Under the pieces are notes generated by a model, which saw only the letters and a list, made by a program, of their open reading frames with translations, did no database searches and was not told the origin of the DNA. Positions 17,737 through 23,905 of a DNA stretch of 64,000 nt are shown piece after piece. Both the position numbers and the translations under genes were made by a program. The stretch's first letter is position 1; each line of letters starts with the position of its first letter. The stretch lies in NCBI RefSeq assembly GCF_028369105.1, contig NZ_JAQNDO010000001.1, positions 7,348,501 through 7,412,500 on the forward strand, in the 5' to 3' direction. This DNA comes from Polyangium mundeleinium (GTDB lineage Bacteria > Myxococcota_A > Polyangia > Polyangiales > Polyangiaceae).

Positions 17737-17822
17737 ATCAAGCTTACAACTCGCGTGCTGCGGGCTACGCTGCGAATCCGCCTTGACGGCGCAGGCGGTG
17801 CTCGGACAAGATCCAAGTCGAT

Positions 17823-17875
17823 GGCGGTGGAGTCCGCCGATAACCGCGGTCCTTGGACCGCCAATGACTCCTACG
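17823..17875 (+). promoter_or_regulatory. Fluoride riboswitch (crcB motif)
   Basis: The sequence follows the crcB/fluoride aptamer consensus: GGCGGTGGAGTCCGCC (P2 with loop), then GATAAC, a P3 stem CGGTCC-TT-GGACCG, and the 3' strand AATGACTCCTACG. The diagnostic pseudoknot is present: GGAGT at 17829-17833 is fully complementary to ACTCC at 17867-17871. Fluoride-bound RNA should hold ACTCC and prevent the terminator at 17866-17903 from forming. The downstream gene is a CLC-F fluoride antiporter, which independently supports the assignment. Confidence 0.9.
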
Positions 17876-17912
17876 ATGTATGCCCCCGGGCACCGTAGGA
17901 GTCGTTCGTCTT
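17866..17912 (+). terminator. Riboswitch expression-platform terminator
   Basis: GACTCCTACG (17866-17875) pairs perfectly with CGTAGGAGTC (17894-17903) around an 18-nt loop, followed by GTTCGTCTTTCTCC. The left arm contains the ACTCC segment used by the aptamer pseudoknot, so aptamer folding and terminator formation exclude each other: an ON switch with fluoride. Confidence 0.82.
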
Positions 17913-17950: not shown

Positions 17951-18202
17951 GTGACGATCAACGCTTCGGGAGCCCTGTCGGTGCTCCGCATCTACCTTCC
18001 CCGCCGCACCGTCAAGCGCGGTCGAGGCTTCTGGGGGGTCGCCGACCTCTCCGATACACCACCAAACACGCTTCCGAGCTGCGTCAAGCTCATCGGAACG
18101 CATGACATCCTCGATGCGTTCGTCACGACGCACCACGAGGACCATCGAGGCACGGTCATCGTCCGTCTCGATGGAGTTGCCATGTCCGGGGGGCCATCAT
18201 GA
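17951..18202 (+). CDS. Small protein of the fluoride operon
   Basis: 83 residues, GTG start 10 nt after AGGAG and directly downstream of the riboswitch terminator. It begins TINASGALSVLRIYLPRR and ends IGTHDILDAFVTTHH...GTVIVRLDGVAMSGG. The LRIYLP strand and the later alpha/beta segment faintly recall DUF190 proteins that accompany fluoride exporters, but the match is too weak to assert. No membrane segment. Its stop overlaps the ATG of the CLC-F gene, so the two are co-translated. Exact function unknown. Confidence 0.6.
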   Translation: MTINASGALSVLRIYLPRRTVKRGRGFWGVADLSDTPPNTLPSCVKLIGTHDILDAFVTTHHEDHRGTVIVRLDGVAMSGGPS

Positions 18203-19551
18203 CGTGGCGGCGATTCTCGACGTTCGTGCAGTGGATTGTCCTCGGCGCGTGCGTCGGCGTGTTATGCGGGGGCGCGTCCGCGCTCTTCCTGCATCTCCTC
18301 GAAAAGGCCTCGGAGGTCCGCACGGGTCACGAGATCGTCGTATATACCCTGCCCCTCGCGGGCCTCATCATTGGCTGGGTCTACGAGCGCTTCGGAAAGC
18401 CGATCAAGGCCGGGAGTAACCTCATCATCGATACCATTCACGACGGGGGCCCCGAGATCCCGCTGCGCATGGCTCCCATGGTGTTGATCGGCACGGTATT
18501 GCCCCACCTCTTCGGCGGCAGCGCCGGACGAGAAGGAACGGCTGTGCAGATGGGGGCGAGCCTCGCCGATGCCTTGGCTTACCGCCTCGGTTTGACCCAA
18601 GAGGTGCGCAAACAGCTCCTCGCGGCCGGCGTCGCGGGCGGCTTCGGCTCGGTTTTCGGCACACCGATCGCCGGCACGGTGTTCGGGCTCGAGTTCATCA
18701 CGCTCGGCCGCATCGAGTACAACGCCCTCGTACCGGCGCTGGTCGCGTCCGTGGTCGGCGACATGACGACGCGCTGGCTTGGCATCGGGCATACCCACTA
18801 CCCTGCTCCGCCGCACGTCCCGCTCTCCTCGCTGCTCCTGTTGAAGTGGCTCCTGTTCGCCGTTGCCATTGCGGCTTCTACGACGATTTTCATCGAGCTC
18901 ACCCATTTCATCAAGAGGCAAATGGAGAAGCGGATTCCTCGGCTACCCTTCCGGATGATGCTCGGCGGCGTCGTCGTGGTCGCGATGTGGCAGCTCATCG
19001 GGATGAGCGACTACCTCGGCCTCGGGGTGCCGATGATCGTGCGTTCGTTCGAGGATCCCGAGCTCCCCGTGTATGCGTTCGCGGCCAAGCTCTTGTTCAC
19101 GGCCGTAACGCTCGGGGCGGGTTTTCTAGGCGGCGAGGTGACGCCGCTCTTCTTCGTTGGCGCGGCGCTCGGGAACGCGCTCTCGGGGCCACTCGGGCTA
19201 CCGCTCCCGCTCTGCGCGGGCGTCGGCCTCGCCGCCATGTTCGCGAGCGCGTCGAACACGCCGCTGGCTTTGTCGATGATGGCGATGGAGCTGCTCGGGG
19301 CCAATGTCTTCCCGCACGTGGCCGTGGTCTGCGTGCTTTCGTATCTGCTGGCAGGCCATCGCAGCATTTACCCAGCGCAGCGGCTCTGGCAACGTAAGGA
19401 TGGGAGCCGGCTGTTCCGCCCCATCCCGTTACGGGACCTGGACGAAGTCGAACAGGAACGCAAGTCTGGTTTTCACGACATGCATCCCACCGTGGGACAA
19501 CAGGCTGACGGCCTCTCATCCGCGGCCCAGCCGCATGCCCACGACCGCTAG
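18199..19551 (+). CDS. CLC-F type fluoride/proton antiporter
   Basis: 450 residues, about ten membrane helices, CLC fold. The subfamily-defining signatures are all present. The anion-filter loop reads AGSNLIIDTIH (residues 71-81), where Cl- transporters have GSGIP. The second loop is GGSAGREGT (106-114). The GxFxP-equivalent loop is GGEVTPLF (311-318). CLC-F proteins expel cytoplasmic fluoride in exchange for protons. A polar C-terminal tail replaces the CBS domains of larger CLCs. It is controlled by the upstream fluoride riboswitch. The last 36 bp overlap the convergent membrane protein gene. Confidence 0.93.
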   Translation: MTWRRFSTFVQWIVLGACVGVLCGGASALFLHLLEKASEVRTGHEIVVYTLPLAGLIIGWVYERFGKPIKAGSNLIIDTIHDGGPEIPLRMAPMVLIGTVLPHLFGGSAGREGTAVQMGASLADALAYRLGLTQEVRKQLLAAGVAGGFGSVFGTPIAGTVFGLEFITLGRIEYNALVPALVASVVGDMTTRWLGIGHTHYPAPPHVPLSSLLLLKWLLFAVAIAASTTIFIELTHFIKRQMEKRIPRLPFRMMLGGVVVVAMWQLIGMSDYLGLGVPMIVRSFEDPELPVYAFAAKLLFTAVTLGAGFLGGEVTPLFFVGAALGNALSGPLGLPLPLCAGVGLAAMFASASNTPLALSMMAMELLGANVFPHVAVVCVLSYLLAGHRSIYPAQRLWQRKDGSRLFRPIPLRDLDEVEQERKSGFHDMHPTVGQQADGLSSAAQPHAHDR

Positions 19552-20070
19552 CGGCGCGGACCCGAGCGCGAGCGCCACGGCCATGCCGCCCACAGCTCCG
19601 AGCCCCATCCCCATGCATCCAAGCGCGCCCATCAACGCGGCGATCACGGATGCGGACAGCGTGAAGCCGCGCCGTCCTTCGCTCTCGCCTACCGCACGCA
19701 GACCAACCACGATCCCGGCAGCCAATCCTGCGCTCGTGCATACCGGCAGGCATAGCGGCGAGCACGCACCCGCCATGCAGCAATGCCCCGTCGCGCGCAG
19801 AACGAGGGGCGCCAGAAGCGGGATAGCTCCGGCCATGAGCCCAGGCCGCACAGCACGCCCGAGCGCGCCACCGCGCCAGAGGAGCCCGACCGCGGACATC
19901 CCGAGCGCCGCGCCCACCCCCACCGTCCACGCGATCCCCGCGCTGCCGCCCAGGAGCGCGAGCGCCACGGCAGGCGCGAGATAGACGAGGATTTTCGCCG
20001 TCGATCGCAGCCTCCCGAGCTCGTATGCGCGCCTCGCACGCGCCGCGAGCTCTCGCTCACTCGGTCCCAT
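19516..20070 (-). CDS. Cys-rich polytopic membrane protein, candidate anti-sigma factor
   Basis: 184 residues with a short charged N-terminal arm (ERELAARARRAYELGRLR) facing the cytoplasm, followed by about six hydrophobic helices. One loop carries a dense cysteine cluster (GHCCMAGACSPLCLPVCTSAG), a plausible metal- or redox-sensing site, with another Cys in ALGCMGMG. Its start lies 14 bp inside the upstream ECF sigma gene, the usual position of a membrane anti-sigma factor. Metal-sensing multi-pass anti-sigmas such as NrsF (DUF1109) are a functional parallel, though I do not claim homology. Confidence 0.6.
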   Translation of the reverse strand: MGPSERELAARARRAYELGRLRSTAKILVYLAPAVALALLGGSAGIAWTVGVGAALGMSAVGLLWRGGALGRAVRPGLMAGAIPLLAPLVLRATGHCCMAGACSPLCLPVCTSAGLAAGIVVGLRAVGESEGRRGFTLSASVIAALMGALGCMGMGLGAVGGMAVALALGSAPLAVVGMRLGRG

Positions 20071-20602
20071 GTTTCACCCTCCACGCCTCGCGCAGCCGCC
20101 GCATCGCGCGCTCCACCCGTTTCCGGAACGTCGCGCCCTCGGGCCGCTCATCGGCAAGGACCCGCCGCAGCGTATCGACGTCCTCGGCGCCCAGCGTCCC
20201 CAGCGCTTCGAGGGCAGCCTCCTGCAAGTCCTGCGCGATCACACGCTCCTCGGGTGTCCCCTCATCAGTGCGGGCGAGCGGACCGAGCTCCTCGATTCCA
20301 CCCAGCTCCTCCCGACGCCGACGCGCCTTCTGTCGCAGCGTCCGGCACTCGTACGCCACGATTCCCAGGATCCAGGAGCGCGCGTCGCGCGTCGCGTCGA
20401 ACTCGGACGCGCGCGAGAACACCTTGATCAACGCCGCTTGCGCGGCGTCCTCGGCGTCCGCCTCGCTCCGCATCGCCCGCGCGGCGAATCGCCGGAGGAC
20501 AGGCCAGACCGCTGCATAAACCGGATCGAACGCACTCCGATCCCCATCGGCGAGGCGAACCATCGCCCTGTGCAGTTGCTCGCGTTCGTCCCGGTCCATC
20601 AC
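20057..20602 (-). CDS. ECF-type RNA polymerase sigma factor
   Basis: 181 residues. Region 2 is clear: FDPVYAAVWPVLRRFAARAM, then EADAEDAAQAALIKVFSRAS and ATRDARSWILGIVAYECRTL, including the -10 recognition segment. Region 4 is a helix-rich end (EALGTLGAEDVDTLRRVL ... TFRKRVERAMRRLREAWR). Comparable myxobacterial sigma factors often sit in operons with their own membrane anti-sigma, as here. The gene lies between a Cys-rich exported peptide (upstream, 38-bp gap) and the Cys-rich membrane protein (14-bp overlap), suggesting a metal- or thiol-stress regulon. Confidence 0.87.
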   Translation of the reverse strand: MMDRDEREQLHRAMVRLADGDRSAFDPVYAAVWPVLRRFAARAMRSEADAEDAAQAALIKVFSRASEFDATRDARSWILGIVAYECRTLRQKARRRREELGGIEELGPLARTDEGTPEERVIAQDLQEAALEALGTLGAEDVDTLRRVLADERPEGATFRKRVERAMRRLREAWRVKHGTE

Positions 20603-20640
20603 CTGGCGTTATTTCCGTCCTCCGGCGATGCGTAAGTCCG

Positions 20641-20784
20641 TCAGTGCCCGCAGGGGCAGCCCGAGCCGCACGGGCACGACGTACCACAGGGGCAGGGCGC
20701 CGCATCCGCGAGCGCGCCAACCGGCATGGCCAGCAGCGAGAGGGCAGTGACGGCGCGTACGAGGGTGTTCTTGAAGGTCTTCAT
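20641..20784 (-). CDS. Exported 47-residue CPCG-repeat peptide
   Basis: A very short gene with a purine-rich leader (GGAGGAAAAGAAGAG-ATG). It encodes MKTFKNTLVRAVTALSLLAM, then PVGALADA, a standard Sec signal peptide, and a mature tail APCPCGTSCPCGSGCPCGH: six cysteines in three CPC units plus a terminal histidine. This looks like a small periplasmic metal-binding peptide in the style of a metallothionein. It is the first gene of a unit with the ECF sigma factor and the Cys-rich membrane protein, so it may buffer or present metal to that sensor. No named family is recognised. Confidence 0.72.
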   Translation of the reverse strand: MKTFKNTLVRAVTALSLLAMPVGALADAAPCPCGTSCPCGSGCPCGH

Positions 20785-20926
20785 CTCTTCTTTTCCTCCG
20801 GCCGCTCAAGAGCGCGGCGATTCGGATAGGCGCGAGGCGGTCGAAGCGTGACCGTGCGGGGCTCTTTTTGTCAGCCACGCACGGCCCTCGCCTACTTCCA
20901 CTTTTCTTGAACAAGCCCCTTGCGCT

Positions 20927-20950
20927 CTACTTCGAGGATGTTAGAAATAG
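20927..20950. promoter_or_regulatory. Imperfect dyad before arsR1
   Basis: CTACTTC-N10-GAAATAG, six of seven positions symmetric, ending four bases before the GTG of arsR1. A likely operator for the ArsR protein itself; it resembles, but is not identical to, the GAACTA/TAGTTC dyad in front of arsR2. Confidence 0.4.
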
Positions 20951-20954
20951 GCCC

Positions 20955-21272
20955 GTGACCTCGACGCTAGATCGTCACGCCCAGCAGCTCAGCGCGCTCG
21001 GCCATCCTGTTCGCCTTCAGATCCTGCGCTTCGTCGTGCAGGGGGGCGACGGGGGGACGTCCGCTGGGGAGATCCAGGCGCATGTCGATCTACCCCCGTC
21101 GACCCTGAGCCATCACCTGAAGCGGCTCGTCGAGGCTGGCCTGTTCACGACCCGCCTCGAAGGCACGTTCCACTATTACGCCGCCGATTACGCGGCGCTG
21201 ATGGCCCTCACGGCGTACGTCTGGGAGGACTGCTGCAAGCGTGGCAAAGGCGGAAAGGGCGGCTGCTGCTGA
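20955..21272 (+). CDS. arsR: ArsR-family metalloid-responsive repressor 1
   Basis: About 105 residues from the GTG at 20955, where the family match begins (RHAQQLSALGHPVRLQILRF). A frame extends further upstream but through promoter-like sequence. The winged helix is LPPSTLSHHLKRLVEAGLF with the wing TTRLEGTFHYY. The metal site differs from classical ELCVCDL: the C-terminus has two vicinal pairs, Cys93-Cys94 and Cys104-Cys105 (EDCCKRGKGGKGGCC), as in ArsR subtypes that bind As(III) at the C-terminus. Precedes arsI by 63 bp. Confidence 0.87.
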   Translation: MTSTLDRHAQQLSALGHPVRLQILRFVVQGGDGGTSAGEIQAHVDLPPSTLSHHLKRLVEAGLFTTRLEGTFHYYAADYAALMALTAYVWEDCCKRGKGGKGGCC

Positions 21273-21335
21273 GCGGCTGCTTTTTTCTGCGCGTTGGTTC
21301 GAGTTTTTTGGAACAAAGCAGAACGGAGACTCCAT

Positions 21336-21827
21336 ATGAACGTCCTCAAGCCCCACGTGTCTCTGAACGTCACCAACATCGAGCAATCCGTTGCCTTCTA
21401 CGAGAAGGCGTTCGGCGTCGCGGCGACGAAGCGGCGTCCCGGATATGCGAAATTCGACCTGGAGACTCCCTCCCTCAACCTGACGATGCAGGAGGCTCCC
21501 CGCACGGGCGTCAACGCCAGCCACTTCGGCGTCCAGGTTGCGGCCACCGACGACGTCATGGAGGCGAAGACCCGCTTCGAAACCGCGGGGCTGAAGACGA
21601 TGACGGAGGAAGACACGTCGTGCTGTTTTGCCGTGCAGGACAAGGTGTGGATCGAGGATCCGGACGGCAACTCGTGGGAGGTGTTCGTCGTGAAGGCCGA
21701 CGCCGCCGTCATGGGTGATTCCCCGGCGCTGCGAAAGGACGCGAGCGCGTGCTGCACGCCTGTCTCCCTCTCGGAAAAACCCGAGGTCAAGCCTTCGGCA
21801 TCGTCCTGCTGCGGCCCGAAGACGTGA
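21336..21827 (+). CDS. arsI: ArsI/CadI-family C-As lyase (VOC superfamily)
   Basis: 163 residues of the vicinal-oxygen-chelate fold. ArsI is an Fe(II)-dependent dioxygenase that cleaves the carbon-arsenic bond of trivalent organoarsenicals. Metal-ligand candidates His7 (KPHVSLNV), His63 (ASHFGVQV) and Glu115 (GNSWEVF) are in place. The substrate-binding vicinal thiols are Cys96-Cys97 (DTSCCFAVQDKVW), the same numbering reported for the characterised family member. Two further CC pairs occur in the tail (SACCTP, SSCCGPKT). Start chosen at the ATG after GGAG. Confidence 0.88.
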   Translation: MNVLKPHVSLNVTNIEQSVAFYEKAFGVAATKRRPGYAKFDLETPSLNLTMQEAPRTGVNASHFGVQVAATDDVMEAKTRFETAGLKTMTEEDTSCCFAVQDKVWIEDPDGNSWEVFVVKADAAVMGDSPALRKDASACCTPVSLSEKPEVKPSASSCCGPKT

Positions 21828-21841
21828 GGGAGCATCGGCGC

Positions 21842-21870
21842 TTGACAGGAACTAGGCCCCGTAGTTCTAT
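21842..21870 (+). promoter_or_regulatory. arsR2-acr3-arsC promoter with embedded operator
   Basis: TTGACA (21842-21847), 17-bp spacer, TTCTAT (21865-21870). The spacer carries a perfect inverted repeat GAACTA-N7-TAGTTC (21849-21867) spanning the -10 edge. Position and symmetry fit an ArsR operator that occludes RNA polymerase until As(III) binds the repressor. The ArsR2 start codon is 13 bp downstream. Confidence 0.72.
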
Positions 21871-21882
21871 CGTCCTTCCACG

Positions 21883-22230
21883 ATGAAAGGTGACGCACCC
21901 CCCGGCCCCCCCTGTTGCCCTGCGCCTAGCGTTGCGCAGGACCTGCGCCCCGTGGAAGGGCGGGAGGCCGATGAAGAGTTGGCGGCGCTGGCCAAGGCCA
22001 TCGCACATCCCGCCCGGGTGCAGATCCTCCGTCTCCTCGTCCGGAAGACCGCTTGTATCTGCGGGGACATCGTGGACGAACTGCCGCTCGCGCAGTCGAC
22101 CGTCTCGCAGCACTTGAAGATCCTGAAGGAAGCCGGGCTCATCCGCGGCGAGGTCGACGGGCCACGCGTCTGTTACTGCATCGAACCCGCCGCCCTCCGG
22201 CGCCTCAAGGCGCTGGTGGGTGGGCTGTAA
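21883..22230 (+). CDS. arsR: ArsR-family arsenic-responsive repressor 2
   Basis: 115 residues, winged helix-turn-helix: [14 protein letters not shown], then [20 protein letters not shown] and the wing [17 protein letters not shown]. The classical helix-alpha3 metal site is present as [10 protein letters not shown] (Cys58 and Cys60), with an extra N-terminal pair (GPPCCPAP) and Cys97/Cys99 in the wing. First gene of the arsenite export unit. The promoter dyad just upstream is the expected target. Confidence 0.9.
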
Positions 22231-22243
22231 GTTTTTTGCTCCA

Positions 22244-22265
22244 TTCATCGATCATCGACGATGAA
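22244..22265. promoter_or_regulatory. Inverted repeat between arsR2 and acr3
   Basis: TTCATCG-N8-CGATGAA, a 7-bp perfect dyad following a GTTTTTT tract in the 107-bp gap. It could be a hairpin that attenuates read-through or a second operator; nothing decides between these. Confidence 0.35.
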
Positions 22266-22337
22266 CGAAGAGCGGTCGCCCCCGGGTCGGCCACCCCTTC
22301 GCGGCAGAAGCCATAACGCCAGCAAGGACTTGACAAC

Positions 22338-23453
22338 ATGCGATCCGAGAAGGCCGGGATCGTCGGCAAGCTCTCTTTCCTCGATCGTTACCTGACGCTG
22401 TGGATCTTCCTCGCCATGGGGCTCGGTGTTGCCCTCGGCTACACGGCGCCCGGTTTCACGGCGCTCCTGAATCGCCTGAGCGTGGGCACAACGTCGATCC
22501 CGATCGCCATCGGGCTTGTCGTCATGATGTACCCCCCGCTCGCGAAGGTGCGCTACGAGGAGCTTGGGAGGGTCTTTCGCAACAAGCGCGTGCTGACGCT
22601 ATCGCTCGTGCAGAACTGGATCATCGGCCCGGCATTGATGTTCGGCCTCGCCGTGCTCTTCCTGCGCGACAAGCCCGAGTACATGCTGGGGCTCGTCCTC
22701 ATCGGGCTCGCGCGGTGTATCGCGATGGTCATCGTCTGGAACGATCTCGCGAAGGGGGACACGGAATACTGCGCTGGATTGGTCGCGTTCAACTCGATCT
22801 TTCAGGTGCTGTTTTTCTCGGTGTACGCATATTTTTTCGCGACGCTCCTGCCCTCCTGGCTTGGGCTCGAAGGCGCGGTCGTGAACATCACCATCATCGA
22901 GATCGCGAAGAGCGTCGCCATCTACCTGGGAATCCCCTTCGCAGCCGGGTTCCTCACACGCCGGGTGCTCGTGTCTTCCAAGGGAGCGGGCTGGTATCAG
23001 AAGCGTTTCGTCCCGCGTATCGGGCCGATCACGCTCGTCGCGCTGCTCTTCACCATTGTGGTGATGTTCTCTCTGAAGGGCGAGACCATCGTGCAACTCC
23101 CGCTCGACGTGCTCCGCATCGCGGTGCCGCTCCTGGTCTACTTCGTCGTGATGTTCTTCGTCTCGTTCTTCCTGAGCAAGCGCGTCGGCTCGGACTACAA
23201 ACAGGCCGCCACGCTCTCGTTCACGGCGTCGTCGAACAACTTCGAGCTCGCCATCGCCGTCGCCATCGCGACGTTCGGGATCCATAGCGGGGCGGCGTTC
23301 GCGGCGGTCATCGGACCGCTCGTCGAGGTGCCGGTCCTGATTGGGCTCGTCAACGTCGCGCTCTGGCTGGGGAAGCGGTTCTTCCCCGGTGGCGTCGAGG
23401 TCGTACCGCCGCCCTGCGCGGTGCCCGCCACGGAATCGGAGGCCCAAGGATGA
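22338..23453 (+). CDS. acr3: ACR3-type arsenite efflux permease
   Basis: 371 residues, about ten membrane helices, of the bile/arsenite/riboflavin transporter superfamily. Hallmarks are [20 protein letters not shown] at the N-terminus, the [14 protein letters not shown] helix, the essential cysteine in [15 protein letters not shown] (Cys127), the [11 protein letters not shown] segment and the [14 protein letters not shown] helix. It exports arsenite using the proton-motive force. The stop overlaps the arsC start (ATGA). Confidence 0.94.
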
Positions 23454-23905
23454 ATGCCATGTCGACCCCCAAGAGCATTCTTTTTCTCTGCGTCGCGAAC
23501 TCGGCCCGCAGCCAGATGGCGGAAGGTCTCGCACGGGAGATCTTCGGTGATCGCGTGCGGGTTCAGAGCGCCGGCAGCAGCCCGTCCCGCGTCAATCCCT
23601 TCGCCACCGAAGTGATGCGGGAGGTCGGTATCGACTTGACCACGCATGCGTCGAAGTCGGTCGACTCGATCGACCCTGCATCGGTCGACATGGTGATCAC
23701 GCTCTGCGCCGAGGAGGTGTGCCCTGTTTTCCTCGGCAAGGTTCGGCGGCTCCACTGGCCGGTCCCCGATCCCGCGAGCAACGACCCTTCGCTGTCGCGC
23801 GAGCAGATGCTCGACCGTTTCCGCACGGCCCGCGGGCAGCTCCAGGCTCGTTTGGAGGGGCTCGCGGCGCTTTTCGACATCCCTCTTGCGAAGAGCACGG
23901 CGTGA
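23450..23905 (+). CDS. arsC: Arsenate reductase, low-molecular-weight phosphatase type
   Basis: 151 residues. The phosphatase loop LCVANSARS gives nucleophile Cys14 and Arg20. The pair needed for intramolecular disulfide relay is [12 protein letters not shown] (Cys86, Cys91), as in thioredoxin-coupled ArsC. The WPVPDPAS segment supplies the general-acid Asp. It reduces arsenate to arsenite for export by the upstream permease, with which it is translationally coupled. Confidence 0.93.

Follow-up and report, generated by a model that had tools for sequence, protein, structure and literature searches.

A putative thiophilic-metal switch composed of an ECF sigma factor, a six-helix membrane protein and an exported cysteine-rich peptide in Polyangium mundeleinium

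The CnrYXH and NccYXH systems of Cupriavidus combine an ECF sigma factor with a membrane anti-sigma factor and a periplasmic metal-binding partner; CnrY is an anti-sigma factor with a single transmembrane (TM) helix and CnrX is a folded sensor. Bacterial metallothioneins of the SmtA/MymT type are short cysteine-rich peptides that buffer soft metals. In Caulobacter, the ECF sigma factor SigF is restrained by NrsF, a protein of six TM helices whose N-terminus is short and cytoplasmic and which has two cysteines in the periplasm; this control is lost when the periplasmic cysteines are changed (PMC3511200). SigF drives the expression of small DUF2282 proteins, which were subsequently named bufferins (PMC3511200, PMC12452194). 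In Myxococcus xanthus, the copper-dependent ECF sigma factor CorE carries a C-terminal Cys-rich domain, and no anti-sigma factor is linked to it (PMC3107203).

Genes and predicted proteins of the trio

The window, which is the whole stretch of 64,000 nucleotides of P. mundeleinium DNA analysed here, contains three consecutive genes on the minus strand encoding a peptide (20784-20641), a sigma factor (20602-20057) and a membrane protein (20070-19516), in the order given in the original prediction. The last two genes have 14 nt in common. The features of the locus are:

20641..20784, minus strand: exported Cys-rich peptide of 47 amino acids (open reading frame; no Pfam or NCBIfam family; positional analogues at 35 of 76 loci)
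20057..20602, minus strand: ECF-type sigma factor of 181 amino acids (Sigma70_r2; AF2 model; structure matches to ECF sigma factors)
19516..20070, minus strand: six-TM membrane protein of 184 amino acids, probable anti-sigma factor and metal sensor (overlap with the sigma gene; pair present at 76 loci; AF2 model)
19738..19788, minus strand: sensor loop GHCCMAGACSPLCLPVC, residues 95-111, predicted to be periplasmic and to lie between TM3 and TM4 (AF2 model and conservation)
20827..20852, minus strand: predicted operon promoter GTCACG-N14-CGCCTA, ending 42 nt before the ATG of the peptide gene (motif found across loci)

The peptide (MKTFKNTLVRAVTALSLLAMPVGALADAAPCPCGTSCPCGSGCPCGH) is preceded by GGAGG, which resembles a ribosome binding site. 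Its N-terminus is signal-peptide-like and ends with MPVGALADA, and all six cysteines are located in the mature part after the ALADA site, including the tail PCPCGTSCPCGSGCPCGH. No Pfam or NCBIfam model matched the peptide, and a look-up by sequence alone returned close relatives and a few weak matches.

The sigma factor gene starts at GTG 20602 or ATG 20599. The protein matches PF04542 (Sigma70_r2) with 35.1 bits (cut-off 24, E 1.2e-8), and its single-chain AF2 model (pLDDT 91.6) has three helices beyond residue 115. The model aligns with a Z score of 14.2 to the E. coli sigmaE/RseA chain and with Z scores of 13-15 to region 2 of sigmaE, SigW and SigC; the structure matches include E. coli sigmaE with RseA and CnrH with CnrY (4cxf). 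Region 2 and the fold of the ECF sigma-70 factors are thus both present. The Sigma70_r4 domain is not recognized in Pfam searches of this protein. Across 74 family members the distance from D140 at the end of region 4.1 to R159 in the RKR of the recognition helix is 18-27 residues, most often 21, which we take to be about ten residues below that of typical ECF sigma factors, judged from RpoE. This shortfall is consistent with the extra residues that one PDB-matched sigma factor carries in the same stretch and with the alignment to region 4 of SigL, in which 70 positions of 80 residues are aligned. It looks as if region 4 is present and its first helix-turn-helix helix has been shortened or lost across the family. 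The GTCACG (-35) element is strongly kept despite the shortened region 4 of the window sigma factor and its 73 homologues. The protein ends after region 4 and has no Cys tail.

For the membrane protein, single-chain AF2 modelling with 74 homologues gave six TM helices (5-40, 46-66, 74-93, 107-127, 133-155 and 157-183) with a mean pLDDT of 91.2. The first of these helices links an N-terminal arm (RRAYELGRLR) to TM1, and in this arm Y16 is conserved in 69 and R20 in 73 of the 74 members. Because the arm and the loops are arginine-rich, the positive-inside rule places the arm in the cytoplasm and the 95-111 loop and C152 in the periplasm; an orientation with a cytoplasmic arm and a periplasmic Cys loop is therefore predicted on the basis of the model. 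No Pfam or NCBIfam model matched this protein, and no fold match was found in the PDB at E <= 0.001. The best VIA-align Z score of 6.1 reflects a common helical arrangement, and matches to the TM bundles of RND transporters (Z about 5-6) were not trusted.

Distribution of the pair, its promoter and its peptides

Relatives of the membrane protein were found in 19 of 59 close genomes, in 71 of 184 genomes of the order and in 41 of 379 genomes drawn from the phylum. The sigma/membrane-protein pair occurs at 76 non-redundant loci, nearly all in Myxococcota (the labels Phycisphaerales and Bdellovibrionales of two carriers may result from mis-binning), and a family-specific ECF sigma gene lies immediately upstream of the membrane protein gene in essentially every intact locus, with an overlap of 4-14 nt in the 17 loci examined first. 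Named carriers among the matches listed are Sorangium cellulosum So0157-2, So ce26 and So ceGT47, Myxococcus xanthus AM003 and Myxococcus sp. CA023, an incomplete list which rests on a single short pattern from a subset of the alignment. The trees and counts given here take loci of metagenome-assembled genomes (MAGs) as reliable; gene calling in draft MAGs is crude, so that calling any one locus free of a peptide or metal operon is approximate.

The original prediction regarded the trio as a unit that should recur in other genomes, and it does: next to the 76 loci with the pair, a peptide gene was found upstream at 28 to 35 of them, depending on the search. A strict detector (a small ORF with a basic N-terminus, a hydrophobic stretch and then at least 5 Cys, with its stop at most 300 nt from the sigma gene) found a peptide directly upstream of the sigma gene at 28 of 76 loci compared to 2 of 4,086 random control positions in the same loci. 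Inspection raised the number to 31, and a promoter-anchored search added four loci (L132, L134, L141, L156), giving 35 of 76. The peptides can scarcely be aligned between loci. They include CPCG repeats (Sorangium and the window genus), ECCGTGAACCKPGAACC, DCCALGLLCCDWLPCC, CCPGPCCESGCPMCP and CCCDNCDGCDCGCD as well as forms of 80-99 amino acids rich in CACD/CKC. Despite this wide divergence, Cys richness and a signal-like N-terminus persist, and a fixed position and Cys richness with the rest drifting freely is the pattern expected of a metal chelator.

In the original prediction the peptide was thought to bind or buffer the signal as a part of the switch itself. A buffering role is probable. 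An obligatory part in sensing is not, since a peptide is missing in about half of the loci and is thus probably the output of the switch. One could still envisage a co-sensor: with or without bound metal, the peptide would touch the membrane protein's loop and thereby govern sigma release. In favour of this, the operon opens with the peptide gene and cysteines abound in both exported parts, but many of the loci without a nearby peptide gene have the same sensor signature, and peptides that are almost unconserved next to a conserved loop do not look like a binding partner, which makes this explanation improbable. We therefore regard the peptide as probably a metal-buffering output of the switch.

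The motif GTCACG-N13/14-CGCCTA (at least 11 of 12 matches, spacer of 13-14, at most 500 nt upstream of the sigma gene) was found upstream of the sigma gene at 50 of 76 loci, compared to 0.86% of control stretches. It generally precedes the peptide gene in peptide loci and lies close before the sigma gene in many others. In the window, the copy at 20852-20827 (minus strand) is the sole exact match. The 13.25 Mb genome of the window contains three exact matches (four for a backward-pattern control), two of which are apparently within coding sequence, and the only intergenic copy is that of the trio operon; the switch thus seems to serve mainly its own operon in this genome. A 12-nt inverted repeat (CCGTGCGGGGCT/AGCCACGCACGG, 9-nt loop) at 20852-20884 directly adjoins the -35 element predicted for the trio promoter. 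This repeat is a possible operator or terminator and is not evident in the congener locus L020.

Sensor signature, neighbouring genes and the metal

At loci without a peptide, genes downstream on the same strand mostly encode an outer-membrane efflux protein (OEP, 15), multicopper oxidase (7), heavy-metal-binding domain (HMBD, 5), RND pump (4) or CusB-type adaptor (4), and none of these classes was found downstream in peptide loci. NCBIfam models further identified CusB/CusA-like pump parts and copper-resistance oxidases at non-peptide loci, and a copper-translocating (CopA-type) P-type ATPase exceeded the cut-off in L125 and L024. Counted by locus, copper genes are present at 17 of 41 non-peptide loci and at 0 of 35 peptide loci (Fisher p 4e-6), a p value that has to be discounted because two changes on the sigma tree suffice for the peptide and copper states; as evidence for functional equivalence of the two outputs, the contrast is inflated by descent and weak. 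On this tree most copper loci group in one part, and the peptide loci are scattered over the remainder of the phylum. Neither a peptide nor a recognised metal operon is present at about 14 loci. A second, sigma-less copy of the six-TM protein was observed downstream in four copper operons (L096:5572-7432, L100:5908-6451, L107:7121-7667 and L108:5967-6513); in L096 it may be part of a fusion, as its open frame continues into the next efflux-protein gene.

The putative sensor residues are conserved among the 74 members as follows: H96 in 50, C98 in 71, C103 in 63, C107 in 73, C111 in 68 and C152 in 72. The full signature, H-C-C-C-C-C-C, includes a second Cys two residues after C152 and is found in 17 of 17 copper loci. 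The eight sensors that lack both H96 and C103 are exactly those of the eight loci beside small MerT-like or CCxF[LF]x[FW] proteins. Signature and neighbouring genes thus shift together, as would be expected of a metal-sensing membrane protein. Common descent accounts for some of this: the link between signature and MerT-like neighbours follows a clade, with two changes on the sigma tree. The sub-family without H96 and C103 comprises L027, L028, L033, L035, L129, L139, L142 and L143; no Pfam or NCBIfam model matched its MerT-like (CVxCCALP) and CCxF[LF]x[FW] neighbours, and it is possibly a mercury-type unit or one for another thiophilic metal.

Sensing of a metal, one of the two kinds of signal originally suggested, agrees with a Cys cluster of the membrane protein that is near-invariant and predicted to be periplasmic, and with sister-locus neighbours that act in the detoxification of metals, chiefly copper. 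By analogy to these sister loci, the metal for the family is most likely Cu(I)/Ag(I). Cys clusters are also capable of redox sensing, and an HOCl-responsive ECF system has been described (PMC8315932), so the switch could respond to thiols or oxidants (disulfide stress, HOCl), and the exported peptide would then act as a reductant or a sink for oxidants. Genes neighbouring the module in sister loci code for metal exporters and copper oxidases and not for thiol repair, and we consider a redox switch very improbable.

For the window genus itself, arsenic has to be weighed. A divergent operon encoding ArsR, an ArsI/CadI-type enzyme, a second ArsR, Acr3 and ArsC (20868-23905, plus strand; tail of the first ArsR CCKRGKGGKGGCC) starts about 100-160 bp from the trio. 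Among the loci examined, this arrangement is kept solely in the congener genome G002, and the sensors of the window and of the congener locus L020 have a private signature in which C97 is gained and C154 is replaced by Gly. These two traits, limited to the window and its congener, make arsenic a candidate for this genus: the trio could be the sigma-controlled arm of the ars operon, responding to arsenite or other As species. In the periplasm the peptide would then trap trivalent organoarsenicals or As(III), for the latter of which CxC thiols are well suited. However, ars genes accompany no other peptide-bearing locus, copper genes are what the family at large is associated with and the promoter motif is common to the whole family, and we judge an arsenic switch unlikely. 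On the other side, a ClC-family channel gene (18199-19551, plus strand) that probably encodes a fluoride exporter converges on the trio, with a fluoride riboswitch (RF01734, 44.7 bits) at 17814-17880 (plus strand), about 320 nt upstream of it.

Proposed switch and comparison with described systems

We favour, with moderate confidence, the explanation that the sigma factor and the six-TM protein form an autoregulated switch for thiophilic metals, with the six-TM protein as the anti-sigma factor and an exported metal-buffering peptide as its output in the window. Computation yielded the conservation of trio and pair, the promoter motif, the topology model and the association of sensor signature with neighbouring genes; from these we infer sequestration of the sigma factor, metal binding, release, peptide function and the choice of metal. 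At rest, the six-TM protein would sequester the ECF sigma factor, probably via its N-terminal cytoplasmic helix (RRAYELGRLR). Release of the sigma factor would follow when a soft metal ion binds, on the periplasmic side, to H96, C98, C103, C107 and C111 of the TM3-TM4 loop and to C152 in TM5. The freed sigma factor would transcribe from GTCACG-N13/14-CGCCTA, which in the genome of the window means its own operon, so that the exported Cys-rich peptide would be made first and then more sigma and anti-sigma factor. After processing at ALA-DA, the peptide would buffer metal in the periplasm or outside the cell. In other species, the peptide is replaced by a copper efflux/oxidase operon with the module at its head.

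More tentatively, the module may represent an unnamed Myxococcota-wide family of six-TM anti-sigma sensors in which the His/Cys signature sets the metal, the outputs are interchangeable (most commonly unmodified, fast-diverging metallothionein-like peptides) and sigma factors with a shortened region 4 act at GTCACG-N13/14-CGCCTA. If true, this would be a second, apparently unrelated family of membrane anti-sigma factors that sense periplasmic metals, and it would reveal a large pool of exported Cys peptides, too short for annotation, that buffer metal without RiPP enzymes. Sensor signatures matched with particular neighbouring genes offer ready-made pairs for studying the choice of metal by the membrane protein, and the narrow, self-directed regulon with its strong promoter motif makes the switch a candidate biosensor part.

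Compared to described systems, the trio shares with CorE the phylum and an ECF sigma factor and, as proposed here, a copper response in which a Cys-rich metal site governs activity. It is not of the CorE type: the sigma factor has no C-terminal Cys-rich domain, and the cysteines are found instead on a membrane partner that is always linked. Like SmtA and MymT, the peptide is short, Cys-rich and a probable soft-metal buffer; it differs from these metallothioneins in having a predicted signal peptide, putative control by an ECF sigma factor and no Pfam or NCBIfam match. The latter also sets it apart from the bufferins (Buf1/DUF2282, Buf2). Modification by an MNIO enzyme, as in MNIO-modified RiPPs, is not a requirement: there is no MNIO (PF05114/DUF692) gene at the locus, the nearest being more than 1.5 Mb away, and none was found in the trio-bearing genomes G017 (97% complete), G108 (98%), G227 (93%), G435 and G382 (both 91%). 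The three-part logic is that of CnrYXH and NccYXH, but here one six-TM protein would do both the anti-sigma and the sensor job, and the third part is a Cys-rich peptide of 40-100 amino acids that is often absent.

The trio itself was not found described in the literature searched, but the original statement that no system of this composition was known needs correcting, as SigF, NrsF and the DUF2282/bufferin peptide of Caulobacter are very similar in make-up (PMC3511200, PMC12452194). Judged by profile comparisons, the membrane protein does not belong to the NrsF family (PF06532, DUF1109): no match was found in the genome of the window, with Caulobacter as a positive control, nor in any of 17 family members, and hhalign against Myxococcota NrsF proteins gave a probability of 5.8%. 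With no solved structure having matched, NrsF and the six-TM family may have a remote common origin. The promoter motif differs from that of SigF, and the loop has 4-5 Cys. In common with SigF-NrsF-Buf1 are an ECF sigma factor adjoining (here overlapping) a six-TM protein which, according to the model, starts with a short cytoplasmic segment and has conserved Cys on the periplasmic side, small exported Cys-bearing peptides probably under the control of the sigma factor and a connection to heavy-metal or copper stress (PMC3511200, PMC12452194). The resemblance to NrsF is thus one in the proposed way of working and not in family membership.
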